Part shown: positions 643 to 20,121 of the stretch, in pieces
Position numbering within the stretch: position 1 is the first letter of the stretch
How the letters are laid out: every line of letters begins with the position of its first letter
Assembly (NCBI GenBank): GCA_006503475.1
Contig: RSEH01000422.1
Span: forward strand, 1 to 20,683
Length of the DNA: 20,683 bases
Direction of reading: 5' to 3'
DNA from: Stentor roeselii
Lineage: Eukaryota > Ciliophora > Heterotrichea > Heterotrichida > Stentoridae
Translations under genes and position numbers: made by a program
Notes under the pieces: model-generated
What the model was told of the DNA's origin: nothing
What the model saw: only the letters and a program-made list of their open reading frames with translations
Databases searched by the model: none

Positions 643-3600
643 CTAAACTCTATTAGAATATCTTTTTTTCTTTGTTCTTGTCATATCAATTCTTGTAACG
701 TCCCAAAATACTTGGTCCATATTTTTATATTTGAGTTTTTCTTTAGTTTCAACCTGGTTAGGGTGCATAAAAGTATAAGATTTTTTACCTTCTAGCTTAT
801 TCTGATGAACTCCATCTTGAAAAGTTGGCTCTTCATTAAAATTTTCTTGAAAAGAGTCTCCTTTTTTGAGCCTGCCTTTGAATTGAGGGTAGAATTTGAT
901 GAAAATATCTAAAATTACTTGAGACATGTAATAAATCCAATAGATAAAAAAGTAGGAATTTCCGAAAACAATGAAAATAAATAAAAATATTTCAAACCCG
1001 GCATTGATTCCTTCAGATCCATAATAAAGGCCACTGTAAATAGTGACTGTAGCAGTTAATAAAGCCTCTGTTTCCATGTTATTAAGTTTTTTTGAATTGA
1101 AAGGTGTTTTTGAATAGTGAAGATAAAGTGAAAAAATCAAAATCAGGAAAACAGTCAAAGCTTGAACAATAATTTCTTGTGGAGATAAAAACACAGAAAT
1201 TAGAATAAGAAGAGTTTTCCTTAACATAATCAAGAATTCCCAATAAAATCTTCGTAGTTTGTACCCATTAAACAAATACCCAAAAATAACACGATTGTGA
1301 TCTAAATGCAGAGACTTTTTATTTTTCGACATCATGATCACCAGGAAACTAGGAAAACCTATAGTCCATAAAATAAGTCCAGGAAGTGCAATGATGAGTG
1401 AGTATCTTTGATGTAGATTATCCCAGCACTGTATGCTTGTATTCGATTTAAGGTAACTTTCCATTTGGTCAATTTTAATACAATTGAAATTCGATAGCAA
1501 GACCTTTGAGATAGTCGGGTATATCAAAATGAAAACAACAATAATTGATAAAAAAACTTCTCTTTTTAAATACTTGTAATTTTCCTTGGTAAAACTATGA
1601 AGAATCCAGTACAAATAACAAGTAAAAATGATGATAAAAGGAGCTATGGCCATCAATAAAACTTTTAAGTAATATCCTTGAGTTTTACTCTCTGAGTTCT
1701 TCTCTTCAAGATAACAGTCCAATGAAAAGATCTGCTCTGTCAACGTGGCAGCTCCTTGTTGATACCTAAAAAGCTCCAGCACATATTCAGGCCATTTGAG
1801 GTTAAACTGTGTCACAATGAACACCAATTGAAGATAATTCGTGAATATTTTTATATATACCGAATACATTTCTTTAGAAACAAAAGCTGACTTGAGTGTA
1901 GCCTTAACGATTATCACAGCAATAAAAATGCAGGAGGAAAAAAGCACGACAAGAATGACAAGATTTGCAGTTTTTTCAGGACATTTCGAGCATTTGTAAA
2001 AAGAGTTCATGGTGTACCCGATTTCACATGACTGGCACAAAACACCTTCGTATCCTGCAGAACAATTTCCAAGTTGGTCTTGAGAGGTCCCAGCTTGGCA
2101 GGCTTCAGGATATTCACAGGGATAAATGATCTCTGAATTCAAACTAGACCTCCAATACCCTTTGTTCACAGCCAATGAAGACCCTCCACCACAAGATGCT
2201 CCAACAGGACAAGACTTGCAGTTTCTCTTTGGCTCCAATAAGTATTTTCCTCCAGGGCATTCCTGACAAGAAGTGCTTTGAATCTCCTCGCCATTAGAGC
2301 AACTTCTGAAAGTTGCATTAAGGTAAATGATTTCTTCATGATCTGATTCATCGTTTCTGTCTTTTTTTAATGTGAGTTTTGATTCGAGCTTTACGATCAC
2401 CCAAGATTCTGGAGGACCGTAGAGGGTAAAATTGGTTACTGTGATTATTCCTTTCTCTGCAGTGAAACTGGTTTGCCCAGAAACTGAGTATTTGCTGTCT
2501 AATGAGTCAATTGAAATTGTTAGTGAAGAGTTACTGTCAGTTAATACTATTTGGCCGTATGTGTCTTTTAGGTAAACTAAAATTTTTTCGGAGAATTGTT
2601 GACCAGGAGCAAAATCGTTGATCATCAAAATGGCTTCTTTTAAGTTACGAGAACTTGAAAAAGATAAAGAAACTGCTTCAGAAGCTATATTGTTACCATA
2701 TGTAGCTGTATTGTTTTCTATTAGTACTTCAGAGGTGTTATAAAAAAGTTTAAAATCATTCCATTTAACTCCTCCTCCATCTTGACTGCAAGAGTTTTCA
2801 ATGATTTTTGTTTTTCCTGAAAAGTAAACCCCACATGTTTCACATTTTTTAGTGGAATAATAAACTCCACCTCCTGATTCCTCTGCAAAGTTACCATAAA
2901 CACGACTGTCTATCAAAGAAAAATTATAACTATCAACATGAATTCCTCCTCCTTGCCTATCTGATGTGTTATTTTTAAAGTTTGAGTTGATCACAATCAG
3001 TTCTCGTCCTTGATCTTCAGAAACTGCAGTCAAGGCCGAGTATGAATGAGTATTGAACTTCTCAAATAAAGAGTCCTTTATAATGCAATTTTTACTGTTC
3101 GAAATATAAACTCCCATCAATTTTAAAGAAGATCCTAAAAAATGACTATCTTGGATTACTACTGATTCGCAAGTGTCTATGTAAATCAGAGATTGAATCG
3201 ATTTTGGTGACCCTTTTGAAGGACTTAAAAATTTCGATGATTTTATTTCGATTGTTTCGCTCTGTTTCATAATTATTGATCCAGAATCAGAGTTTTTACC
3301 GAAAATTGATTGAGAAACTGATGAATTTATAAATTTTAGGATTGAAAACTGAATGTGAATGTCTGGGCCTGAGTTGTATTCGAAGGAACAACTTGTAACA
3401 ATTAGAATTGAACTGATTGAGAAAATGTTTCCAAGAGGGCTTGTTGAATTTTTAAAGAATGAGTTGAAAAGGCTTGCTTTAGAAAATGAGTCTAAGTATA
3501 AGATCGCCACTTTCTGGTTAGAAGTCATGTTTACGAAGGTGGAACTGTTAATTGTGATATTTGACATAAAAGAGTATATTCCTGAGTAGTAATAGTCTTT

Positions 3601-6600
3601 TACTTCATTTGATGACACAAAAACATTAAGGAGGTCCAGATTTGCTCTTGAGACTTCCATAAGAGTATTGGATAGAATAAAGTTGTTGCTTATTTTTGTA
3701 TTTGAAAATAAACTAGTTGAATGCAGAGATGAGCCTAACGAAATCAAGGAAGAGTAATAAGCCTTACTGTCAATTATTGAAGAGTCATAAATTTTTGCAG
3801 AAGAATTTTCATTTAAATAGATAACTGTTTCGTTTATTTCTTTAAAAGTGCAGTTTCTGCAGGTGAAAAGAGATGAAAAAGTAATGGAAACAGCTTTTGA
3901 ATAACATTTATGAATCAAAATATTTTCCGCTATTATTTTGCTTAATGAAAATATTTCAATTCCTTTTTGAGATTCTTTAATCACCAAGTTACTGACATTC
4001 AAGTCAATTTGTGAAGTATAAATAGATGCAATTCCTTCTGTAATATTGTAGATTGTAACATTATTTATTGAAACAAATGTGGAATCCACAAGAGATTCAA
4101 ATCTTAGAACTGAGTCTTTTGACCTAGAATTTGAAATGAAAGCATTTTCTATTTTGAGAGAAGGCAGATTGGATGAAAAATAAGCCATGATAATATTTAT
4201 TCCAAAATTTTCATCCAGTCGAATATCTCTGTAAAGAAATGTTCCCTTGAAATGATGATCTGAAATAACTCCACCCTTTTCACTATGACATTCTGTGATT
4301 ATGATACTGGTCATTCCACATGAAGGTTTTTCAAAATTATTCATGCTTGTGATATAAACTGCTGATCCATCGTTTGCTTTGCAGTTTTTAAAGATCAGGT
4401 CATTAAAGGTAACTAAATTTCTACCTATTGTTGACAAACTGTCCACGAAAACTCCACCTTTTCCAAATTCAGTCAAACAAGCGAAAAGGGTACCATTTTG
4501 TATTTTAATGATAGAACCGTATTGATATGATAATAAATGAATGCATCCGCCATTGCTAGACTCAGTTGTAAGATTTTCAAATAAAAAATTCTCTAAATTG
4601 AAGTTTTTTACACTTGAAACCATGATAGGACTTGAGAAGTTTGAAAGGACTTTTTCGATTTCAATGTCGGCTAGACTCACATTTTCGCATTGCTCGAATT
4701 TTAAAATTGAATACACGAAGTTACTAAGACGATTAATTCTTAGAGTTTTAACTGTTATTTGGATTGAATCAGTGATATCAAGGCCTAATGCAGTTGTGCT
4801 AGTTGACTGGAGATCTGACAAATGAATGTCTTGAAGTTCGATCAAGTTTATGGAATATAAAACCATTCCAGCTGATGAAGACTTAGAAAAACACGCAGAT
4901 TTAGCAATTTTTTGTCCAGTTATAAATAATTTATTGATTCTTGATATTGTAACCAGAATCTTGCACTTTAAGTCAGGGATTTCTTTTTCATCATAAATAT
5001 TGCTGATATATTCTCCGTTGTTAGTAAATTTTTGAATTATGTTCTTTACACTAGAAACTTCAGAGTCCTGAACTCCAGAAATACTAAAATTTTCAAATAA
5101 ACAGTTTGGGTAATTATCAACAAACAAAACTGAACCACCTGTGCAGCAGCTTTCAACTTTAACATTATTTATAATCAAATATCTGGCATGAAAGTAAACT
5201 TTTTTTAATATATTGTGCAAGTAAATTTCCTTAAATTCTCCTTCTTGATCTGCTTTGCTTACCATCCCTGAATGGCTTATATAAAAATACCCTGATTCTC
5301 CAACAACTGAGTTAGTGATGTTAAGATTTGAAACTTGGATGTTATGAAGAATGTTTCGCATCAAATACAGAACCATTCCTCTTGAGCAGTACAAAGAGTC
5401 AATTGAAAGATTTTGCATCACGAAATGCCTTGCAGCGAAGGCTTGACTTACAGAATTTTTTTCTTGTATGTTTAAGTATTCAAGTGATTTTACGTCAATA
5501 TAAATAAGATAATTGAGATAGTTGTTGAAAAAAGTGCAGTCTAAGACCATGACAGTTCCCACTTGATTAAAACTGTAAATCAAATAACCTTCATGAGAAG
5601 CTTTAACGTTATTTAGCAAAATATTATAAGAAAATTCAACGTTCTTTATAGAGATAGAACCGAAATTTTCAGCAATGATGAAACTTCCAGTTGAACTGAA
5701 GGAAGTATGCTCGTACCCTGCACCTAAATGACTAACTTTTCCGGAGATATAAGTAAAACTTGTTGTTGTGCAATTGTCTTGGCAGGTTAGTATCAGAACA
5801 CTTCCAGAAGAATGCGCCTGCATCTTATAGAAACTGACTTTAAGTAGATTGAGGATACCAGAAGACTTAATTAAACTTTTGTATTGAGACCTGAAATTGT
5901 AAAATTCTGTATTATTGATCGTGACATTTGTGGTAAATACAAACAAATTAACTGTCTTGTATAAGTTACAGTTTGTTGAAAACTGTTCAAACACAGTATT
6001 GTTTATTATTTGACCTCGGTCATTCACAATCTCAGAAGACCGGATCGTGTAAAAAGGGCAGTACTTACAAAACTCTGTCTCACAATCATTTTTCAACATT
6101 TTCTCTCCAATGAATCTGATATTTTGAATGAAAACCTTCTGAGCAAATGGTGTGATTCTGACATGACTCTTAAAGGTAACATTCGCCATCTTCCCATCTG
6201 AAACATTTCCAATTATCCAAAGTTCATAAAAGGTTTGATGCCCAGATATATTCAAAGGGTCGTACTTGTCGTTAACAAGTGCAGAGGTTGAATCATCAAC
6301 ATCTAAATCGTTTTTTTCGCTTAGGATTAAAATTTTTGTGAAACTTGCGAAAATATTGACAAAGGCTTTGTATAAAGAGTTGAATGGAGAACCTTCTTCA
6401 CCTTTTCCTGCATGTGAAGTGTCTGAGTCAACATAAAATATTTTGTAATTGTGATGTGAGTAAATATTTGGAGCAGGCAAGCACCAGTGCTGAATTTCGA
6501 ATAAATCTGAAAGTTTTCTCACGTCTGTTAACCCTGTGGGACATTCTTTTAAACCGTCATGGCATGAGGATAGAAGCATAAATGTTTTACAAATCAAACA

Positions 6601-7755
6601 AACGTCGAATGATGATCTTGAGCATGAAGCGAATTTCGCGTTGGTAGAGCCCATGCAGTAAAAGCACTCGGGACCTGAGCATATTTCTCCCGGACTACAA
6701 GATTTAGATAGATTAAGAAAATTTTCTTCATCCTGGCATTCACATTCTGAAGTGTTGAGAAGTTTGGACTTATCATAGTTGACAACATAATTAAGAGCAG
6801 CTTTCTTGATTAAATTTGTATCATTACAAAACTGAGCAGCAAAAAAACATTCTGAGACAAGACACTCTGCGACACAACTTCTAGAAGTATTCCCAACAAA
6901 ACCTCCAGTGTTCTGGTCATACTTAAAATCGCATCCAGGAGCACATCCGCAGTCTCCATAGTCATAATTGCATTCAGAGTTATTACATTCATCTTGACAA
7001 ATCCCATCTCCAAGCTCTTCATAAAAGCATCCTTTGGCGCAGTACCCACAAGAATAATACTTAAAAAAGCACTCAGGGATAGCACAAGAGTCAATAATTT
7101 GATCATCAGAGTCGATTAAACAAGACTTTTCTCTCATTTGAAAATCGCTACACCCATCGATGCAGACACAATCGCCATCATCATAATTGCAGTGCTGATT
7201 AAAGCAAAGAGCATCACATTTTCCGTCATTTCTCATGTTTTCAAAGCACCCAGCGCTGCATTCAATGCACGGGTTGCTTGGGTAGTCTTTGCAGTGACCT
7301 TCAAGACATTCATCTTTGCATTCTCCGGAGAACAGATCGGTTTTAAAGCATTCTTCACTGCACCACCCGCAGGCATCGTTGTCGAACATGCAAAAAGGAG
7401 TCGAGCACTGAGCGTCACAGAGAGAATTTGTCAGCATTTCTTCAGTGCACCCTGACGAGCAGAACCCGCAGTCGCCTAAGTCCCACCCGCATTGATAAGT
7501 GTTGCATGATGAGTCGCATGTGCCATCTCCGAGTTTTTCAAGCTCGCAGAAACACTCTTCAAAGCAGTCTGAGAAGGAAAAGGTCTCTTGAATTGAATCA
7601 CCTATCTTGAGCGAATCGAAATTGCAGGATCGACTCATGCACTCTTCATCGCAATTATTGTCACCTACAAGAGAGGGTTTGCAGAAACTGGATGAACAGT
7701 TGAATATATCGATGCTATTGACTTCAAGCAATGGTGCTATCAGAAGAATCAACAT
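643..7755 (-). CDS. Giant surface protein: LNR (Notch-type) repeats, right-handed beta-helix, cysteine-rich stalk, C-terminal multi-pass membrane domain
   Basis: The 2370-residue frame is open throughout. The ATG at 7755 is directly preceded by an in-frame TAA, so the start is well bounded, and a short hydrophobic signal peptide follows. Residues about 20-310 carry roughly eight LIN-12/Notch-like modules, several ending in the calcium-binding type signature (CNYDDGDC near 189-196, CNYDYGDC near 262-269); others are degenerate. Residues about 438-480 (FYVDSD, then a Gly-rich SPFNSLYKAF) look like the entry of a pectate-lyase-like beta-helix, followed by more than 1200 residues of Asn/Ser/Ile-rich beta-helix coils with many N-glycosylation sequons. 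Residues about 1818-1930 form a cysteine-rich segment (CQECPGGKY, GYEGVLCQSC). Eight to nine hydrophobic helices follow at about 1931-2285, then an 85-residue basic cytoplasmic tail. This predicts a huge ectodomain on a receptor- or channel-like membrane base. Ligand, activity and family of the membrane part are not recognised. It lies upstream of, and in the same orientation as, the ABCC fragment. Confidence 0.93.
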   Translation of the reverse strand: MLILLIAPLLEVNSIDIFNCSSSFCKPSLVGDNNCDEECMSRSCNFDSLKIGDSIQETFSFSDCFEECFCELEKLGDGTCDSSCNTYQCGWDLGDCGFCSSGCTEEMLTNSLCDAQCSTPFCMFDNDACGWCSEECFKTDLFSGECKDECLEGHCKDYPSNPCIECSAGCFENMRNDGKCDALCFNQHCNYDDGDCVCIDGCSDFQMREKSCLIDSDDQIIDSCAIPECFFKYYSCGYCAKGCFYEELGDGICQDECNNSECNYDYGDCGCAPGCDFKYDQNTGGFVGNTSRSCVAECLVSECFFAAQFCNDTNLIKKAALNYVVNYDKSKLLNTSECECQDEENFLNLSKSCSPGEICSGPECFYCMGSTNAKFASCSRSSFDVCLICKTFMLLSSCHDGLKECPTGLTDVRKLSDLFEIQHWCLPAPNIYSHHNYKIFYVDSDTSHAGKGEEGSPFNSLYKAFVNIFASFTKILILSEKNDLDVDDSTSALVNDKYDPLNISGHQTFYELWIIGNVSDGKMANVTFKSHVRITPFAQKVFIQNIRFIGEKMLKNDCETEFCKYCPFYTIRSSEIVNDRGQIINNTVFEQFSTNCNLYKTVNLFVFTTNVTINNTEFYNFRSQYKSLIKSSGILNLLKVSFYKMQAHSSGSVLILTCQDNCTTTSFTYISGKVSHLGAGYEHTSFSSTGSFIIAENFGSISIKNVEFSYNILLNNVKASHEGYLIYSFNQVGTVMVLDCTFFNNYLNYLIYIDVKSLEYLNIQEKNSVSQAFAARHFVMQNLSIDSLYCSRGMVLYLMRNILHNIQVSNLNITNSVVGESGYFYISHSGMVSKADQEGEFKEIYLHNILKKVYFHARYLIINNVKVESCCTGGSVLFVDNYPNCLFENFSISGVQDSEVSSVKNIIQKFTNNGEYISNIYDEKEIPDLKCKILVTISRINKLFITGQKIAKSACFSKSSSAGMVLYSINLIELQDIHLSDLQSTSTTALGLDITDSIQITVKTLRINRLSNFVYSILKFEQCENVSLADIEIEKVLSNFSSPIMVSSVKNFNLENFLFENLTTESSNGGCIHLLSYQYGSIIKIQNGTLFACLTEFGKGGVFVDSLSTIGRNLVTFNDLIFKNCKANDGSAVYITSMNNFEKPSCGMTSIIITECHSEKGGVISDHHFKGTFLYRDIRLDENFGINIIMAYFSSNLPSLKIENAFISNSRSKDSVLRFESLVDSTFVSINNVTIYNITEGIASIYTSQIDLNVSNLVIKESQKGIEIFSLSKIIAENILIHKCYSKAVSITFSSLFTCRNCTFKEINETVIYLNENSSAKIYDSSIIDSKAYYSSLISLGSSLHSTSLFSNTKISNNFILSNTLMEVSRANLDLLNVFVSSNEVKDYYYSGIYSFMSNITINSSTFVNMTSNQKVAILYLDSFSKASLFNSFFKNSTSPLGNIFSISSILIVTSCSFEYNSGPDIHIQFSILKFINSSVSQSIFGKNSDSGSIIMKQSETIEIKSSKFLSPSKGSPKSIQSLIYIDTCESVVIQDSHFLGSSLKLMGVYISNSKNCIIKDSLFEKFNTHSYSALTAVSEDQGRELIVINSNFKNNTSDRQGGGIHVDSYNFSLIDSRVYGNFAEESGGGVYYSTKKCETCGVYFSGKTKIIENSCSQDGGGVKWNDFKLFYNTSEVLIENNTATYGNNIASEAVSLSFSSSRNLKEAILMINDFAPGQQFSEKILVYLKDTYGQIVLTDSNSSLTISIDSLDSKYSVSGQTSFTAEKGIITVTNFTLYGPPESWVIVKLESKLTLKKDRNDESDHEEIIYLNATFRSCSNGEEIQSTSCQECPGGKYLLEPKRNCKSCPVGASCGGGSSLAVNKGYWRSSLNSEIIYPCEYPEACQAGTSQDQLGNCSAGYEGVLCQSCEIGYTMNSFYKCSKCPEKTANLVILVVLFSSCIFIAVIIVKATLKSAFVSKEMYSVYIKIFTNYLQLVFIVTQFNLKWPEYVLELFRYQQGAATLTEQIFSLDCYLEEKNSESKTQGYYLKVLLMAIAPFIIIFTCYLYWILHSFTKENYKYLKREVFLSIIVVFILIYPTISKVLLSNFNCIKIDQMESYLKSNTSIQCWDNLHQRYSLIIALPGLILWTIGFPSFLVIMMSKNKKSLHLDHNRVIFGYLFNGYKLRRFYWEFLIMLRKTLLILISVFLSPQEIIVQALTVFLILIFSLYLHYSKTPFNSKKLNNMETEALLTATVTIYSGLYYGSEGINAGFEIFLFIFIVFGNSYFFIYWIYYMSQVILDIFIKFYPQFKGRLKKGDSFQENFNEEPTFQDGVHQNKLEGKKSYTFMHPNQVETKEKLKYKNMDQVFWDVTRIDMTRTKKKRYSNRV

Positions 7756-9891: not shown

Positions 9892-11260
9892 ATGCTTATT
9901 TGTATTAAATTACTAATATCTATAAATATGTCTTTCATTTCTGAAGGCTCTAATCCAGCTGAAGCTTTTAGTTTTGAATCTTCAAATTCTTTGCGATACT
10001 GTAGAAATTGCAATGAACTACCAAGTTCGAAGATTCATAAGCAAATCTGCATTAATCCAAATATCGAAAGTTGCATTATTCAGATTTCAGCAGAAATGAA
10101 CGAAGTTATCACTGTATTGAAAAAGGCATTAAATCAAGAAGTAAAGGACCTTAAGCAAAGGAATAAAGATTCAGAATTATCTGAAATTAAACTAAGTACC
10201 TTCAACAAAGAAATGAAAATTTTGCTTATTGAAGCAGCATATAATATTTTCAAAGATGCTGACTATAATAAGCTTACAAGGAAACTAAGAGAAAAAGAAC
10301 GGGATTTAGATGAAAACATTAAGAAATATAATGAGTTTCAGAGTATTTTACTTGAAAAAATTATAGACTATGAAACACTTAGAAGTAATTATGAAAAAAA
10401 AGTGCAGTGCGTACCTCAAATTATTAAGAAAACTGATGAATCATATTTATTTGAGAAGGATTTATCTCAAAAAACTGATGACTCTGATGAAATTTGGACA
10501 AAATTTAATAAAAACATAATTGATTTAAATGAACTTCAAAAAAAATATATCGAAATAATGAAGCAGAATGATGAACTTAAGGAACAATTAAAGAATGAGC
10601 AAACTTTAGCACAAATCAAAATAGAATATGATAAGTTGAAGAATAAATATGAAAAGAAAAAGAAGGACTTGGCTCAAAAAATTGCAGACTATGATAAACT
10701 TGAAAGTAAATATGAATTGAAAGAGAAAGATTTAGATATTACAAACAGAGACTATAAAATAATTCTAAATGAATTAGAAATAAACAAGCAGCATTCGGAG
10801 TGTATGAATAAAAGCTTTACAGAACTTAATGATGAATATTTGAAAATAAAAGAAAAAAGCGCATCATTACCACAAGGTTTTAATTATTTAGATTTCAGAA
10901 ATTTAAGTTTAACTGATAAAAAGATTCAAATTTCTCAGAGTTTGAACTTTGTTCGATTAGTCAATGAATATGACCATGAGTTTCTTATTTCAAACAATCA
11001 AACTTTTTTGTTCAGATGTAACTTATATTTAGGTGAAATAAAATATAGATTGTAACCTGCATTTAGGGAGTAATAATTATAAAGTAAGCCGCTCCACTCA
11101 AGACAAAGCATGTATCAGATAATCAGTATATGTTTATAACCTTTATACTAGGGAATTAGAGCCACGTTCCCTGAGTGAGCCGAATTGGTTGAATAACGGA
11201 TCATATGCTTGGAGATGGAAGAACTTTTATCCGGAATGCATATTCAAGGATTGGGAGTAG
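9892..11260 (+). CDS. Zinc-finger-like coiled-coil protein with two micro-introns (445 residues after splicing)
   Basis: The unspliced frame ends at 11055 after 387 codons. Removing GT..AG stretches at 11033-11048 and 11112-11126 extends it in a protein-like frame to TAG at 11258-11260. Exons are 9892-11032, 11049-11111 and 11127-11260, totalling 1338 bases (446 codons). The ATG at 9892 follows an in-frame TAA; the ATG at 9928 (protein beginning MSFISEGS) is at least as likely, since the 12 residues before it are AT-coded and hydrophobic. Residues 37-53 hold a C-x2-C-x8-H-x3-C cluster that could bind zinc. Residues about 60-335 are charged coiled coil with a recurring DYxKLxxKYExKEKDL-type unit. 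The end (ALYVYNLYTRELEP, then a Trp-rich tail) vaguely resembles strands of a beta-propeller, perhaps a truncated Kelch-like protein. The likely role is structural or scaffolding; function is unknown. Confidence 0.75.
11033..11048 (+). other. 16-base intron 1 of the coiled-coil gene
   Basis: The sequence is GTGAAATAAAATATAG. Splicing joins G at 11032 to AT at 11049 (codon GAT) and opens the downstream frame. If retained, translation stops at TAA 11053-11055, which would give the truncated 387-residue protein. Length and GT..AG ends match the 15-16 base introns known from heterotrich ciliates. Confidence 0.75.
11112..11126 (+). other. 15-base intron 2 of the coiled-coil gene
   Basis: The sequence is GTATCAGATAATCAG. 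It contains the only in-frame stop (TAA at 11120-11122) between exon 2 and the terminal TAG. Its removal keeps the frame and yields the continuous reading DKALYVYNLYTRELEP across the junction. Two independent micro-introns in a row, each needed to restore the frame, support each other. Confidence 0.78.
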
Positions 11261-12726: not shown

Positions 12727-15700
12727 ATGAATATTCGGGATAGCAAATCTGGCGGAATTCAAAACAACAGAGTGGCTCCTGAGGGATCCTCTGAAAAAAG
12801 CGAAGAGCTTCAAAAAGCAAAGAAAAAATTCAGGAAGATGAAGATGGACGATTATTTACTCGATTGCATCAACAGAAAATTGCTTGAAATCAGAACATGT
12901 CCCTATATCGATATCAAGCATGTTGGAAGGATCAATTCGATTACTTTCTCGAAATGTGGGACCTATGTTGCTAGCGCTTCTGAAGATAAGTTCGTGAAAG
13001 TTTGGAATCTTTATAACAACGACGAATTGTTCTGCGATTGCCATGATGATGAAGTCTTTTCAGTCAGTTTCTCACCGAATGCAAAATACATCGCTTCTGC
13101 GTCTAAAGATAAGACTCTGAAAGTTTGGCACATTGCCAAAGACAGAGAACTATTTACTGGAACGCATAATGGAATTGTTTGGTCGGTTTTTTTTGCACCT
13201 AGAGGAAAACTAATCGCTTCTGGGGGAGAAGATCAAATAGTTAAGATTTGGGGCATAGACGGGAGCTTGAAAAGAGAGATTAAAACTCATTCAGATTCAG
13301 TTTTTGAGGTTCTGTTTTCAAATAATGAAAAATATTTAGCTTCGAGGTCAAAAGATTTCACTGTAGGGGTGTGGAGCTTTAAAAAATCAAAAAACATTTA
13401 TACTGTTCATCATCAGAATACAGTAACTTCAATATGTTTTTCATCTAATAATGAACTAATTGGATCAGGATCAGAAGACAACTATATAAAGGTTTACAGC
13501 ATGAAAATGCAAAAGGAAGTGTTTAGTGAAAAGCATTCAGATCAAGTAAAATCGGTTGCCTTCTCCCCCAATAACCTATATATAGCATCCGCTTCATTTG
13601 ACAAAACTGTAAAGGTTTGGAATATCAATCAAAATCTAGAAATATTTCAAGGAGTGCATGGAGATAAAGTCTACACTGTAACTTTTTCACCTGACGGGAA
13701 TTTCTTAGCTTCAGGGTCCTTTGACAAGACAGTGAAGGTTTGGAACATCCAAGAAAATAAAATAGAGTTCAGTGAAAACCACTCAGCAACAGTTTACACA
13801 GTAGCTTTCTCACCGGATGGGTCATTCTTGGCTTCAGGGTCCTGGGACAAAACAGTAAAAGTGTGGAACATCAAAGAGAGGCAAGAAGAGTTCATAGGAG
13901 ATCACTCAGGAACTGTCTGGTCAGTTTCTTTCTCGAATGACGGCCGGTTTATCGTAACCGGTACTGAAGACTGCCAGGTGACAGTCTGGAACATAAAAGG
14001 AAAACGAAAAGAAATGACAACTTCTCATTCAAAAATTGTCAGATCAGTATGTTTCGCGAATACCCAGAGTAACTTATTCGCTTCGGCTTCTGAGGATGGT
14101 TCAATAAAACTTTCTGATCTCAATACGAAAGATGAGAAATCTTTTAAGAAACATGACCTGGGTGTGTTTTCATTATGTTTTTCTTTGACTGATAAATATT
14201 TGGCTAGCGGTTCGATGGACAAAACAGCGAAGGTCTGGAATCTTTCTGGAGAATTAATCAAAACCTTTAATCATGATGGGCTCGTCCGTTGCCTTCAATT
14301 TTCACCAGATGAAAGACATTTACTGTCCGGTTCTTCAGACAACAGTGTAAGAATTTTCGACATCGAAAACAATAATTCTAAAATCGTTTTTACTTCAACT
14401 AGAACAATAAGATCTGTGGCTTTTTCATCGGATGGGTGTTATTTTGCAGCTGGTTCAGAAGATGGCTTGGCGAAAATCTGGCAAATGTCTGATTATAAAG
14501 AATTCACAAATTCGAAGCATTCCAAAGCAGTTAGATCAGTCTGCTTTTCTCCAAACAATAAATTTTTTGCGTCTGGGTCTGAAGATAAAAGGGTTAGAAT
14601 TTTGAACATGAAGGATAAAACTGAAGAATTTAAGGCGGACCACTTGGGGCCAATCTGGTTTATTTGCTTTTCCCCGAACAGCGATTATCTAGCGACCGGC
14701 TCTGAGAACAAACTGGTAAAAGTCTGGAGTTTGGCTGAAAAACGAGAAGAACTGACTGGACATCATTCAGGAACAGTAACAACTCTTTGTTTTTCTCCTG
14801 ATTCTACATGTTTAGCTTCGGGATCTGAAGACAACACATTGAAGCTCTGGAAAATCAAAGCGAAACAAGGAGAAGTAAAAGAAAATGGTTCAGGTAAGAT
14901 TCTTGGGGTTGCGTTTTCTCCTAATAACAAGTATTTGGCTTCAGCTTCAGATGATGGCAAAGTAAGAGTTTGGAATCTTTCAGAAAATCGAGAAGAGTTC
15001 ACTCAGAGTCATCTGGCAAGCATTCGGTGTGTCGAGTTTTCAAAGGACAGCAAGTTCGTCGCCACTGGGTCCTTCGATAATACTATTCGCGTTTGGAGCA
15101 TCAAAGAAAAAAAAGAAATCTTTCACGGAAAACATTCAGCAAATGTAAACTCGGTCTCCTTTAATATGGAATCCAGTAATTTAGTAGCATCTGCCAGTGA
15201 TGACATGACAGCGAAGCTCTGGAACATTACTGAAAAGAAAGAAATCGCAAGTGCGCATCATTCAGGAAAGGTGTTTTCAGTTTCGCATGCAAATAGTGGC
15301 GAATTTATAGCCTCAGGCTCTGATGACAACACCATCAAAATATGGAATGTGAGCAAAAATAAAGAAGAGTTCAACGGGGTTCATGCTGGTACAGTCTGGA
15401 TTGTGTCTTTTTCGCCTGACTCGAAACTTGTCGCTTCAGGATCAGAGGATAATACATTAAAACTGTGGAGCATTCAATTAAAAGCTAATATCTTCACAGG
15501 AAATCATTCCAATACAGTTACGAGTTGTTTCTTTTCTGGTGACTCAAAATTTTTAGCTTCGGGGAGTGAAGACAGCACTGTTAGAGTCTGGAACCTTGAA
15601 GCGCAAAGAGAAGAATTTCGTGGAAAGCACTCCGATATTATCAGAGCTGTTTGCTTTTCAAGAGATAATAATTTTCTGGCCTCTGGTGGTGATGACAAAA

Positions 15701-18700
15701 TTGTCAATGTTTGGAACTTGAGAGAAAAGAGGATCGAAATCAGTGAAAACTTTGCAGGAGGTGTCACTTCTATTTGCTTCTCATATGATTGCACTTTTTT
15801 GGCGGTTGGATCTGAAGAAAAGAAACCAAAAATTTTCAATATAAAAAATAGAGATGAAATTACAATTGATGACCCTGTTGATGCAAAATCTTCTTTTATA
15901 AACAATTCAAAGATACCTAAGGAGATTATTGTAAAAGATCAGAAAATCCCTACTCCTAAAAAGATTGAACCAAATCAGACTTTTAATCACTCGGAGCAAG
16001 TTTCGTCAATCTGCTACTCTCCTGATGGGAACTTTATTGCTTCAGCCTCAAAGGATCATAGTGCTATCATATGGAATATCAAGCAAAAGAAAAAACTTAT
16101 TTGTATTAAGCATTCTGCAGATGTTCTATCAGTAAGTTTTTCCCCTGACGGTCGATTAATGGCGTCAGGATCAAAGGATAGATCGGTAAAGGTTTGGAAT
16201 ATTAAGGAAGATCGAAAAGAATTTATTGGCATTCATAAAGATACAGTTAACTCCGTATCCTTCGGTGCAGACGGAAATTTCTTAGCATCTGGATCAGCAG
16301 ATAAATTTGTGAAAATCTGGAATATCAAAGATAAGCGTGAGGAATTCCAAGCAGAACACAAAGCAAGTGTTATAATCGTCATTTTTTCACCTAATAGTGA
16401 ATATTTTGCATCAGGTACAGAAGATAACAAGATATCAGTGTGGAACATCAAAGAAAAGATCGAAGAATTCGCAGGATTTCAAAATCAAAAAATTAATGAG
16501 ATCTGTTTTTCGCCTAATGGAATTTTGATCGCTTCTGCTTCTGAAGATAAGACTGTACAAGTTTGGAACTTTTTAGAAGCCACTTCAAAACTAAACGGAA
16601 TTCATTCAGGAGCAGTCCGATCAGTGGCATTTGCTAATAATAGCAGCTACTTGGCCACAGGAACAAATGATGGAAAAGTGACTATATGGAATATAGAGGA
16701 TAGAGTTGAAGTTTTTATAAGAAATCATTCAAAAGTAGTTAGATCTGTAAGAATTTCCCCTGATGGGTTGAATATCGCATCAGGGTCAAGTGATGGCACT
16801 ATCATGATTTGGAGCTTGAAAGAAAAAAAGGAACCTTATTATGGAGAACATTCTGATGGTGTTCGAACTATAACTTTTTCACCACATGGAAATTACTTGG
16901 CCTCTGGCTCTTCAGACAAAACTGTAAAAATTTGGGTTCTTAGAGATATTAATCAAGAAAAAGACAAAGAATCAGATGAATTTCGAAGATTCGAAAAGTG
17001 GCCATACTATAAACAAAATAAAATTGATTTCATTTGTTTTTCATCAGATTTAAACGTAACTGCTTCAGGAAGTACAGATGCTCAAATATTAAAATTAAAG
17101 AATTTGAAGCAAGTGAGCTATTTAAACAGCCTCAAAGGTAATCCTAGATCATTATCACTGTCAGACCAAGGTGATATTTTAGCATACGAGTTAGAAAATA
17201 AAGGGCTGATTTTATGGGATGTGAAAACTAACCAAGAAATTCGTCATTATAAGCATTTTAAAGAAGTGACATCAAGTTGTTTTTCTACATCCGGAACCTA
17301 TTTGGCAGTGGGGACTGAAAACTTTATAGTTCTGATAAATCTAAAAGATTCAGCCAAACACAGTCTGAAAGAGCATAGTGAAGCAGTTATTGCTCTTTCT
17401 TTTTCGCCGAACGAAGACCGTTTAGCTTCTGGGTCATTCAATGGTGAAATAAAAGTTTGGAGTGTTCTAGAAAAGGGGTTTCTTTATAATTTGAATAAAC
17501 ACAGCATATGTGTTACTTCATTAAGTTTCTCACCGACTGGAGGAATCTTAGTATCAGGTTCCACGGACGGCTCATCCATTATTTGGAATTTGGATTCTCA
17601 ATATGAAATAGAAACTTTTTCTCCAGCCTTAACAGAAGTTTCTTCTGTTTCAATGTCCAGAGATGGACTGCTTGTCGCCGTTGGAGGGACAGAAAAATAT
17701 TTTGCTATATATAATATTGATTCTAGGAAAAAAATCTTTGATTATTCTTTCAATGATGATGTCATAAGAGTCACTTTTTCTTCTCTTGAAGATTCAATTG
17801 TAGTTGGACTCAGCAATGGAAATGCAATGACATGGAAATATGAGAAGACCCTAAAGGAAGATAGCCAAGATGATACATTTATGATGAAAGAATCTAAAGA
17901 ATTTTTAAGTAAAGACTTTTCAAAATATGGTCAAGAAGCCTGCAACCTGAAGATTGAATTTAAACAAGGGCCTACATATATAATTAATACCAGTCTCAAC
18001 CGAAATCAATTGAATGGAGTATCTGAAAACTTTGATCTTGCAAACCAGTTCAACTTAGCAATACTGAAAGGTTACGGTTACAGCATATCACAGAGCGACT
18101 TTGGCTTTGATGTTCTGAAGAAAAATGAAAAAGTGAACATGTTTAAAATTATCAGTGCTAAGGGTACGCAACTTAAATTGGAAATAGATTCGAAAATTTT
18201 TACTTTTAGGTTGGAAAATGAACTTAAATTGAATCAGCTCTATCTTGATATTATGGAATATCAAAATAAAGAAAACTGCGTCTTGAGCATAGATACTGAA
18301 GTGATTCCATCTAATACCATTGTACTAAGGCCAGCATCTGTAAGTGACTCATTTTTATACAGCCCTCTTAGCTACTATTACGCTCTTGAAGCCATCCAAA
18401 AAGGAGTCTATAAGAATATACGTTCAAAGCATTGCAATATCTTGATTTCTCAGTACAAATATACTGTTTTACACTTCGCATCTTATACAGGACAATCAAA
18501 ACCACTTGAAAATCTGCTCAATGATGAAGAAAAAAATGTTGATATCCGGGCAGATATCTTCGGAAAGTCACCGCTTTACTATTCTTGGATGAGAAAACAG
18601 CTGAGTTGTTTTGAAATAGTTCTTCAGTACCTAATTAAGTTGGACTCAAGCGATAATTATCGACTAATCAGCAACTTGCATTCAACTAGAAATGATTTTA

Positions 18701-20121
18701 TGTTGATAATAGAGAGCTCATCAGCAAATCTCGCATTCTACCTTTCGAAAGTTTTGATGAAAGATGACAGCGATATCAGGATATCGATTCCAGCTAAGCT
18801 TCCTCATCATATAGTCAAAGACACCATTAACCCGAAGTTCAGTGATTTCGATGAAGTGCTTGATGAAAATAAAGATTCAAAATTCATCAGCGGAATTTTG
18901 AAGTACAGTGCTTTTGCCTTACCAGTCGAACCTTATTCAAAAAAGAACATAAAACTTTTGAGGACTTTATACGAATGCACTAATAGAAAGGTCTATGATG
19001 ATATCCTTATTCAGTACTTGATTGACCATAACTGGAATTCAGTGTTTCGATGGTCATTTGGATATTCAATCCTCATTTGGGTTCACATTTTGTTTTTCTT
19101 TTTAACATATATCAAACCGAATGAAATGAACACGCTCATCCCTTTTTGGTCAACCTATACCTTGATTCTGATTTGGGAACTGATTCATATAGTGCTGGAT
19201 TTCAAGGAATACTTAAAGAGCACCTGGAATATAATTGATGTTTTACTTATCTTATTGACACCTTTTTGGAGTTATCTGAGATTTAATAATCTTGACTCTT
19301 TGTACACTGACCTGGCTTTAGCGTGGCTTTTAATGATAAGAGGAGTCGTTCCATTCAAAACATTCCACGGTACACGACATTACATTCGTCTTATATTGCA
19401 ATCACTGAACAATATCAAGTATTTCTTAATCATTTTCCTTTACTTGACACTGTTTTTCTCAGTTCTGATTTTCATAGTGCTCAGAAACGACGAAGATCAT
19501 AATCAAAATTTTTTTGAAATGGTGAAAATGTCTTGGTATTTGAGTGCGACTGGAAACACTGGAATAGAAAGCAACTATGAAATAATTTCTTTAGTGATTT
19601 TCATGTCAACAATTCTGAATTTAATTTTAATGCTTAACATGCTAATTTCAAATCTTGGAGATAGTTATGATCAGTTCTGTTTCGATAAAAACATTATCGA
19701 CTATCGTGAAAGGATTTCTCTTACTCTTGAGGTTCAAACTGCTCTCTTTTGGAGAACTCAGCTTGACAAGACTCATTTTGTTCATATCTTGAACAGGAAA
19801 TATGAAAGCAAGTTGGATGATGATGACGACTGGCAGGGCAGAATCATGTTTACTGAGTTGAAACAAGAAAAAAGGATTGAAAATCTGGAAAGACTTATGA
19901 ATGGACTTGATCTTAAGATCTCTGGAGTTGAAAAAAAAATTGACCTAAAGAATAATAAGCACAAGAGTGAAAATGATAGGCCTAAAAGTCAGGTCATTGA
20001 TCAAAGGATTACTGCACTTGAATCAAAAATTGATTTGAAACTTGAAACGGCGTTGAGTAAAATTCAATCCCATGTATCGAAAGCTCTATTTGTTAAGAGC
20101 ATTGATAAAAAAAATAAGTAG
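12727..20121 (+). CDS. WD40-repeat / ankyrin-like / TRP-type ion channel fusion protein
   Basis: The 2464-residue frame is uninterrupted; its ATG follows an in-frame TAA and it ends at TAG. Residues about 60-1040 hold 24 WD40 repeats of about 41-42 residues (consensus like VAFSPDGSFLASGSWDKTVK then VWN), a Lys/Pro-containing linker follows (about 1045-1087), then about 15 more repeats to about 1706, the last seven degenerate. A region of unknown fold (1710-1900) leads to an ankyrin-like segment (about 1909-1972, with TVLHFASYTGQ and GKSPLYYSW). Six membrane helices follow: S1 about 2105-2128, S2 2140-2160, S3 2166-2187, S4 2192-2213, S5 2229-2252, a pore helix with ATGNTG near 2276, and S6 about 2287-2311 ending in LNMLISNLGDSYDQF, the TRP-type signature. 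S4 has essentially one arginine, so strong voltage sensing is unlikely. A DDDDDW acidic cluster (near 2363) and a coiled coil (about 2375-2455) end the protein, suiting tetramer assembly. It is probably a cation channel gated through its propeller scaffold; ligand and location are unknown. Confidence 0.93.
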   Translation: MNIRDSKSGGIQNNRVAPEGSSEKSEELQKAKKKFRKMKMDDYLLDCINRKLLEIRTCPYIDIKHVGRINSITFSKCGTYVASASEDKFVKVWNLYNNDELFCDCHDDEVFSVSFSPNAKYIASASKDKTLKVWHIAKDRELFTGTHNGIVWSVFFAPRGKLIASGGEDQIVKIWGIDGSLKREIKTHSDSVFEVLFSNNEKYLASRSKDFTVGVWSFKKSKNIYTVHHQNTVTSICFSSNNELIGSGSEDNYIKVYSMKMQKEVFSEKHSDQVKSVAFSPNNLYIASASFDKTVKVWNINQNLEIFQGVHGDKVYTVTFSPDGNFLASGSFDKTVKVWNIQENKIEFSENHSATVYTVAFSPDGSFLASGSWDKTVKVWNIKERQEEFIGDHSGTVWSVSFSNDGRFIVTGTEDCQVTVWNIKGKRKEMTTSHSKIVRSVCFANTQSNLFASASEDGSIKLSDLNTKDEKSFKKHDLGVFSLCFSLTDKYLASGSMDKTAKVWNLSGELIKTFNHDGLVRCLQFSPDERHLLSGSSDNSVRIFDIENNNSKIVFTSTRTIRSVAFSSDGCYFAAGSEDGLAKIWQMSDYKEFTNSKHSKAVRSVCFSPNNKFFASGSEDKRVRILNMKDKTEEFKADHLGPIWFICFSPNSDYLATGSENKLVKVWSLAEKREELTGHHSGTVTTLCFSPDSTCLASGSEDNTLKLWKIKAKQGEVKENGSGKILGVAFSPNNKYLASASDDGKVRVWNLSENREEFTQSHLASIRCVEFSKDSKFVATGSFDNTIRVWSIKEKKEIFHGKHSANVNSVSFNMESSNLVASASDDMTAKLWNITEKKEIASAHHSGKVFSVSHANSGEFIASGSDDNTIKIWNVSKNKEEFNGVHAGTVWIVSFSPDSKLVASGSEDNTLKLWSIQLKANIFTGNHSNTVTSCFFSGDSKFLASGSEDSTVRVWNLEAQREEFRGKHSDIIRAVCFSRDNNFLASGGDDKIVNVWNLREKRIEISENFAGGVTSICFSYDCTFLAVGSEEKKPKIFNIKNRDEITIDDPVDAKSSFINNSKIPKEIIVKDQKIPTPKKIEPNQTFNHSEQVSSICYSPDGNFIASASKDHSAIIWNIKQKKKLICIKHSADVLSVSFSPDGRLMASGSKDRSVKVWNIKEDRKEFIGIHKDTVNSVSFGADGNFLASGSADKFVKIWNIKDKREEFQAEHKASVIIVIFSPNSEYFASGTEDNKISVWNIKEKIEEFAGFQNQKINEICFSPNGILIASASEDKTVQVWNFLEATSKLNGIHSGAVRSVAFANNSSYLATGTNDGKVTIWNIEDRVEVFIRNHSKVVRSVRISPDGLNIASGSSDGTIMIWSLKEKKEPYYGEHSDGVRTITFSPHGNYLASGSSDKTVKIWVLRDINQEKDKESDEFRRFEKWPYYKQNKIDFICFSSDLNVTASGSTDAQILKLKNLKQVSYLNSLKGNPRSLSLSDQGDILAYELENKGLILWDVKTNQEIRHYKHFKEVTSSCFSTSGTYLAVGTENFIVLINLKDSAKHSLKEHSEAVIALSFSPNEDRLASGSFNGEIKVWSVLEKGFLYNLNKHSICVTSLSFSPTGGILVSGSTDGSSIIWNLDSQYEIETFSPALTEVSSVSMSRDGLLVAVGGTEKYFAIYNIDSRKKIFDYSFNDDVIRVTFSSLEDSIVVGLSNGNAMTWKYEKTLKEDSQDDTFMMKESKEFLSKDFSKYGQEACNLKIEFKQGPTYIINTSLNRNQLNGVSENFDLANQFNLAILKGYGYSISQSDFGFDVLKKNEKVNMFKIISAKGTQLKLEIDSKIFTFRLENELKLNQLYLDIMEYQNKENCVLSIDTEVIPSNTIVLRPASVSDSFLYSPLSYYYALEAIQKGVYKNIRSKHCNILISQYKYTVLHFASYTGQSKPLENLLNDEEKNVDIRADIFGKSPLYYSWMRKQLSCFEIVLQYLIKLDSSDNYRLISNLHSTRNDFMLIIESSSANLAFYLSKVLMKDDSDIRISIPAKLPHHIVKDTINPKFSDFDEVLDENKDSKFISGILKYSAFALPVEPYSKKNIKLLRTLYECTNRKVYDDILIQYLIDHNWNSVFRWSFGYSILIWVHILFFFLTYIKPNEMNTLIPFWSTYTLILIWELIHIVLDFKEYLKSTWNIIDVLLILLTPFWSYLRFNNLDSLYTDLALAWLLMIRGVVPFKTFHGTRHYIRLILQSLNNIKYFLIIFLYLTLFFSVLIFIVLRNDEDHNQNFFEMVKMSWYLSATGNTGIESNYEIISLVIFMSTILNLILMLNMLISNLGDSYDQFCFDKNIIDYRERISLTLEVQTALFWRTQLDKTHFVHILNRKYESKLDDDDDWQGRIMFTELKQEKRIENLERLMNGLDLKISGVEKKIDLKNNKHKSENDRPKSQVIDQRITALESKIDLKLETALSKIQSHVSKALFVKSIDKKNK
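12913..17845 (+). repeat. Tandem WD40-coding array, about 39 units of about 125 bases
   Basis: Units were counted by eye from the recurring FSP..G..LASGS.D.TVKVWN pattern. Twenty-four units run from 12913 to about 15845, and after a non-repeat linker about fifteen more run from 15985 to 17845. Neighbouring units 7 and 8 (around 13700-13760 and 13826-13886) are still close at the DNA level, both containing GCTTCAGGGTCCT and GGAACATC in register, so they look recently duplicated. Units near the end (33-39) have lost much of the consensus. Confidence 0.85.

Follow-up and report, generated by a model that had tools for sequence, protein, structure and literature searches.

A WD40 repeat array joined to a putative TRP-like channel in Stentor roeselii, and a gene family with fixed and variable arrays

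The locus and its open reading frames

The stretch of DNA analysed here (hereafter the window) is an entire Stentor roeselii contig of 20,683 bases, drawn from a genome assembly of 44.4 Mb in 522 contigs. The gene of interest is an ORF on the forward strand at 12727-20121, which spans 2464 codons (2464 amino acids), ends in a TAG stop and is free of in-frame stops under the standard code. No intron in the form of a GTA..TAG stretch of 15 or 16 nt is present within it. Two other large ORFs share the window. That at 643-7755 on the reverse strand (2370 amino acids) has four LNR/Notch repeats, a weak beta-helix match and hydrophobic stretches near its C-terminus, and is perhaps a large surface protein, whilst the product of 9892-11055 on the forward strand (387 amino acids) is charged and coiled-coil-like, with no Pfam match at E ≤ 0.01. 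A promoter scan was uninformative.

The telomere repeat CCCTAACA is found at the ends of the contigs listed. The same repeat is given for Blepharisma stoltei, which reads UGA as tryptophan (PMC9942806). TGA is unlikely to encode tryptophan in the window: all 64 tryptophan codons in its three large ORFs are TGG, albeit in frames chosen as open under the standard code, and 47 of the 60 family matches described below are stop-free.

Along the ORF at 12727-20121, a WD40 array is followed by an ankyrin-like stretch and then by an Ion_trans domain. The protein begins with 57 charged residues (12727-12897) in which no signal peptide is evident by eye. There follow a first block of 24 WD40 repeats of ~41 residues each (residues 58-1041; 12898-15849), a less conserved linker (residues 1042-1080; 15850-15966) with 44% amino acid identity to a paralogue, the C178 copy, a second block of eight repeats (residues 1081-1406; 15967-16944) and a third with six detected repeats and one degenerate repeat (residues 1407-1705; 16945-17841). 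A joint of 165 codons, gapless against the C178 copy (residues 1706-1870; 17842-18336), leads to the ankyrin-like stretch (residues ~1901-1974; 18427-18648) and the Ion_trans domain with its putative S1-S6 helices (residues ~2109-2316; 19051-19674). The C-terminal tail is charged and helix-like on inspection (residues 2331-2464 and the stop; 19717-20121).

That array and channel form an unbroken fusion had been proposed in a first-pass annotation of the sequence, and the proposal holds: the same order is seen in complete paralogues on other contigs, with array and channel in one frame in all 19 complete genes read (the window gene and 18 relatives, the latter chosen for long frames and closeness). 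The evidence supports a single protein in which a WD40 array and an ankyrin-like stretch precede a six-helix channel that leans TRP-like.

The WD40 array

Searched with Pfam PF00400, the window protein scores 950.8 bits over 33 stretches. An HMM built from its own repeats detects 38 WD40 repeats and a family HMM 37; with a degenerate 39th repeat read by eye at residues ~1459-1502, the earlier count of about 39 is confirmed. By the protein's own HMM the blocks contain 24 repeats (residues 62-1040), eight (1085-1405) and seven (1431 to ~1705, the degenerate one included).

AlphaFold2 predicts that block 1 folds into beta-propellers (pLDDT 80.3) made of stranded WD40 blades, with strands throughout. 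Foldseek searches with this model return multi-propeller proteins (2ymu, Apaf-1 and proteins of the SSU processome), with low TM-scores (0.22 by query for 2ymu), which are to be expected when several propellers are not placed alike. The structural matches also include ODA16 and doublet-microtubule WD40 proteins, in lists that hold many unrelated WD40 proteins. For model residues 666-985, the VIA matches include ODA16, Fbw7 and the designed eight-bladed protein Tako8 (rmsd 4.5-5.0 Å); ODA16 and Fbw7 are eight-bladed as well.

The 24-repeat block may, tentatively, correspond to three eight-bladed propellers, although the eight-repeat alignment rows could bias the model. The data do not show the five seven-bladed propellers envisaged in the first-pass annotation. 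Dividing the array span by 41 in 15 complete members gives 20.9-21.2 (five members), 24.6 (two), 31.1-31.5 (two), 34.3, 35.1 and 39.0-40.0 (four), figures that are suggestive only of a seven-repeat unit. A search for periodicity of the repeats along the array gave no clear lag, with repeats cut at fixed starts and four rows out of register.

The channel half

In the window protein, PF00520 (Ion_trans) scores 32.8 bits against a Pfam cut-off of 25. The six membrane helices described previously are seen as six hydropathy peaks in the family average; in the window protein alone, S3 falls under the threshold used. The S4 basic residues occupy columns 124, 130, 136, 140 and 150 of the family alignment, six apart rather than with arginine at every third residue. 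From the family alignment, a putative pore-loop or filter-like stretch lies at 19531-19572 (SWYLSATGNTGIES, or SWALSVGGDTGIES in several relatives). S6 (19579-19671) ends in NLILMLNMLISNLGDSYD, of which 11 columns are invariant or at least 90% conserved among 24 members, and a further conserved stretch follows it. The filter-like stretch includes TGNT in the window gene and GGD or GGE in L012-L015 and L018-L021, and ion selectivity may differ between the two types.

TRP channels usually carry ankyrin repeats as an N-terminal spring. The ankyrin-like segment reported earlier matches Ank_2 at E ≤ 0.1 in 21 of 24 members, but in the window protein itself Ank_2 (E ~2.7e-4 to 2.9e-4) lies below its cut-off. 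A PDB profile search with this part returned designed ankyrin proteins and NOMPC (5vkq, E 9.6e-10).

The TRP-like assignment is only partly upheld. In its favour are the Ion_trans score above cut-off and an S4 without arginine at every third residue. TIGR00870 ('trp'), however, matches only four of 24 members (best E 2.4e-4) and has no match in the window protein at E ≤ 1, and Kv1.3 and Cav3.2 are equally strong hits: a membrane-part profile of 24 members finds Kv1.3 (E 5.8e-5), Cav3.2 (7e-5), TRPM8 (1.2e-4), the 'TRP-like ion channel' 6pw4 at S6 (3.1e-4) and TRPV3 (1.2e-3) in the PDB, with TRPV4 also weak. The protein of 6pw4 is algal. At E ≤ 0.1, the membrane part matches Ion_trans in 17 of 24 members and PKD_channel in three, whilst a longer channel part matches Ion_trans in 12 of 24. 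The six-helix channel leans TRP-like on these profiles, a label that applies at the level of the superfamily. A single-sequence, single-chain AlphaFold2 model of the channel half was uninformative (pLDDT 36.8, pTM 0.21).

A large gene family

When the genome was searched with the channel half, at least 60 matches were found at E ≤ 0.001 among the 60 of 222 candidates scored, giving at least 59 besides the window. Of these 60, 36 lie in open frames of at least 1500 codons; 13 contain in-frame stops (L016, L022, L029, L033 and L035 among them) and 47 do not, and from the stops it seems that part of the channel family is decaying. The S5-S6 part gave at least 150 matches (150 of 184 candidates scored), one of them the window's own and two of them fragments of a single C374 copy. 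Sixteen other frames of ~1400-1860 codons (for example L001-L008) show several strong PF00520 matches each, like four-domain calcium channels.

Between 17 and 38 WD40 repeats were detected per gene in 15 complete members. Among 13 further loci read in part, nine have WD40 repeats (L021, L022, L026, L027, L033, L036, L038, L046 and L047, the last two containing the upstream half only), whilst none was detected in the longest fragment of the short or broken frames L016, L024, L029 and L035. Six distant members were also sampled: WD40 repeats were found in L051, L052 and L054 with Pfam and in L055 with an HMM built in this work, and L050 and L053 gave no WD40 match. In a tree with an arbitrary root and long branches, L050 and L053 sit among WD40-bearing members; loss of the repeats in these two is possible, and the arbitrary root and long branches make it unsure. 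Each also shows additional hydrophobic segments, and the membrane profile matches each a second time, more weakly. Among the viral contigs and prokaryote genome contigs searched, there were no relatives.

Selection along the gene

Aligned with the C178 copy over 2454 codons (10 gaps), the window gene is under purifying selection in all nine segments, joint and pore included. Values of dN/dS are 0.120 for the first 57 residues, 0.105 for block 1, 0.212 for the linker, 0.186 for block 2, 0.238 for block 3, 0.378 for the joint, 0.097 for the ankyrin-like part, 0.054 for the membrane part and 0.318 for the tail. Silent divergence falls from ~2.7 at the 5' start, where the first 57 residues lie, to ~0.6 at the 3' end; values above ~1 approach saturation and make the ratios rough. 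Comparison with the C445 copy yields no ratio in most segments, silent sites there being saturated. The 5'-to-3' fall in silent divergence (window gene against L010/L039) looks as if channel ends had been exchanged by gene conversion.

Fixed and variable arrays

Comparison of individual repeats divides the family. When the window gene is compared with the C178 copy, 36 of 38 repeats find their best match at the same index, yet against L012 and L019 there is no positional signal (p 0.30 and 0.25), even though block 1 in those two genes still has 24 repeats that start at nearly the same residues as in the window gene. Within-array identity of block 1 repeats averages 61% in L012 and 66% in L019 compared with 38% in the window gene (0.33 for the window gene's array). 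Entropy in L012 and L019 together is concentrated at positions 13, 14, 22, 32 and 34 of the 41-residue unit; position 16 stands out in L019 and less so in L012, where position 10 is a little higher.

Six positions (13, 14, 16, 22, 32 and 34) were fixed from L012 and L019, and the other arrays were examined afterwards. Mean entropy at the six exceeds that at the rest in 19 of 19 arrays, the contrast being sharp mainly in homogenised arrays (2.31 versus 0.69 in L018; 2.88 versus 2.13 in the window gene). In seven variable arrays pooled (L012-L015 and L018-L020), pN at positions 13, 14, 16 and 32 is higher than the array-wide silent rate. The same four are the only positions at which, in the five arrays held out from finding the positions (118 repeats), pN over array-wide pS (1.38, 1.53, 1.58 and 1.23, respectively) has a lower 95% bootstrap bound above 1, the bootstrap being rough since it runs over related repeats. 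Position 22 gives 1.06 in the held-out arrays and position 34 gives 0.72, with only 0.72-0.77 overall. Measured instead by their own silent rate, positions 14, 16, 32 and 34 give 1.02 versus 0.41 elsewhere in the held-out arrays, 0.96 versus 0.41 in all seven and 1.49 versus 0.46 in L018. No sites above 1 were found in the window clade, nor in L017, L025, L028 and L031, and in the comparison of the window gene with the C178 copy the six positions have a pN/pS of 0.37 versus 0.29 elsewhere.

Same-index comparison of gene pairs gives a matching picture. In six pairs that share 87-89% identity in their membrane parts, the six positions show an identity of 0.277 versus 0.243 in shuffled data (reached by 5 of 1000 shuffles), with 0.797 versus 0.746 at other positions; for L012 and L013 (membrane parts 81% identical) it is 0.167 versus 0.145 (205 of 1000), and pairs with L018 (82-85%), which lie outside the pooled test, give 0.20-0.29 versus 0.17-0.21 for all pairs. 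The window gene and the C178 copy (membrane parts 93% identical), by contrast, retain 0.727 versus 0.241 shuffled (0 of 1000), and pairs with the C445 copy (79%) retain 0.597 versus 0.246 (0 of 1000). At the DNA level, the best match of the 166 repeats of the variable clade is in the same array for 110, at the same index elsewhere for 16 and at another index for 40; for the 67 repeats of the window clade the counts are 9 in the same array, 51 at the same index of another copy and 7 at another index. Exchange among variable-clade repeats is not recent, because no pair among the 166 reaches 93% DNA identity.

Seven close relatives carry the signature of variable recognition arrays and the window gene's own array does not. 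As judged from these alignments, there are two kinds of family member: in one (the window gene and its C178 and C445 copies) the array is fixed, and in the other it is homogenised and varies at candidate contact positions.

Resemblance to known systems

Fungal recognition proteins have such within-gene WD arrays, and 'HIC' is a label for WD40 arrays of this fungal NWD recognition type. From general WD40 topology, together with the fungal work, the six variable positions would presumably lie on the top face of the propeller. In the het-d/het-e study, with which the six positions were compared only after they had been fixed, codons 7, 9, 25 and 27 of the WD repeat, flanking conserved codons 8 and 26, are described as under strong positive selection and as an interaction surface, and the repeats as up to 100% identical (PMC1805685). 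Mapped by spacing, with flanking pairs 18 apart in both cases, positions 14, 16, 32 and 34 (around conserved 15 and 33) would correspond to these four codons. The fungal NWD/HNWD genes het-d and het-e resemble the variable Stentor relatives in having WD repeats homogenised within the gene and, on this mapping, varying at four same-spaced positions. They differ in the degree of repeat identity, as the 93% ceiling above makes plain, and in output, which in Stentor would be an ion channel domain. No NACHT domain like that of the fungal NWD genes was found: at E ≤ 1, Ion_trans and Ank are the sole matches in the channel half, and the remainder of the protein is WD40, linkers and the first 57 residues (25 of 54 families listed).

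With TRP channels (TRPV, TRPM, TRPN/NOMPC and algal TRP1) the family shares the six-helix Ion_trans domain, the S4 pattern and an ankyrin-like joint; long ankyrin arrays there contrast with WD40 arrays here, and the Kv1.3 and Cav3.2 profile matches are as strong. Multi-propeller WD40 proteins such as 2ymu, Apaf-1 and those of the SSU processome resemble the array, but no channel appears in the titles of the best 50 matches listed. No WD40-ion channel fusion was among the results listed in searches of the open-licence literature, although ciliate proteins of this architecture may already be catalogued in domain databases. The term 'WD40' is absent from PMC7935092, which discusses protist TRP channels. 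The pattern of variable positions in the channel-borne WD40 arrays of the close relatives is a new observation.

A model for function and its alternatives

Taken as a whole, the data are best explained if the gene encodes a recognition array that gates a TRP-like, probably tetrameric cation channel, a reading to which we give a probability of about 0.5. The N-terminus would be a cytosolic string of beta-propellers on each channel subunit, offering a surface for protein or ligand recognition. Recognition is placed in the cytosol because no signal peptide is seen by eye and because the N-termini of TRP channels are cytosolic. Binding at the propeller top face would act through the ankyrin-like joint to open or close the S1-S6 pore. 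Fixed arrays such as those of the window gene and its C178 and C445 copies probably bind a constant partner, whilst variable arrays probably track changing targets: intracellular parasites, prey products or a mating partner's proteins. We infer the membrane topology and tetrameric assembly, as also the contact role of the six positions in the window gene, ligand binding, gating, ion selectivity and target. That scaffold and pore are kept, whilst the candidate contact surface stays constant in one branch and has diversified in another, fits a recognition module on a channel. Several points speak against this. The array of the window gene itself is of the fixed kind, and its clade has no site above 1; the ratio of ~1 by own silent rate at the four fungal-type positions leaves room for relaxed constraint; position 34, one of those four, stays below 1; exchange in the variable clade is not recent; and L050 and L053 gave no WD40 match.

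A rival reading is a mechanical tether, with the propellers holding the channel to microtubules or cortical filaments so that contraction or touch pulls on the gate. It would be consistent with an ankyrin-like stretch placed as ankyrins are in several TRP channels, with the family's profile match to NOMPC and with the presence of ODA16 and doublet-microtubule proteins among the propeller matches, many unrelated WD40 proteins notwithstanding. A fixed array like that of the window gene would suit a constant anchor. The tether leaves unexplained, however, why variability in close relatives is concentrated at a few positions, and we consider it unlikely. The cytoskeletal anchor or mechanosensory gating scaffold suggested in the first-pass annotation is unsupported as written, as the variable arrays of seven relatives are not predicted by a pure tether, and a cation channel gated by a recognition array is the reading we prefer to a mechanical anchor.

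Less probable again is that the array is an assembly or trafficking scaffold, siting channels in a particular membrane or gathering signalling enzymes without direct gating, with the variable positions as an address. WD40 propellers are commonly scaffolds and the many paralogues have different arrays, but near-randomised positions at 87-89% membrane identity would then mean a new address for each copy. A tether or an address label accounts for the fixed branch as well as recognition does and for the variable branch less well.

If within-array homogenisation maintained the scaffold whilst loop positions drifted because nothing binds them, the pooled ratio of ~1 at the four positions by own silent rate would follow. 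Such relaxed constraint seems improbable given that positions 13, 14, 16 and 32 lie above the array-wide silent rate in held-out arrays, that L018 reaches 1.49 at the four positions even by their own silent rate, and that the fixed clade keeps the six positions (0.727 versus 0.241), so that these are not generally free. An artefact, with two genes joined through assembly error or a mis-read frame, is practically refuted by fusion in 19 of 19 complete members and a gapless joint of 165 codons with a dN/dS of 0.38, and no point in its support was found.

Implications

More broadly, the family could serve recognition in a ciliate, with diversifying WD40 arrays that evolve in the manner of fungal non-self recognition genes fused directly to channels and forming a many-gene repertoire for innate immunity or for kin or prey recognition whose output is a cation current and not an NLR platform; this is a tentative proposal that we hold to be possible but doubtful. 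If it is true, a single cell would survey its cytosol through a large set of variable propeller sensors, each of them also a channel. TRP-type sensing and NLR-type recognition, two fields kept apart, would be joined, and there would be a concrete gene set with which to approach how ciliates detect parasites, mates or prey. Should it prove false, the fusion still suggests that WD40 propellers can take the place of a long ankyrin spring on a TRP-like pore.
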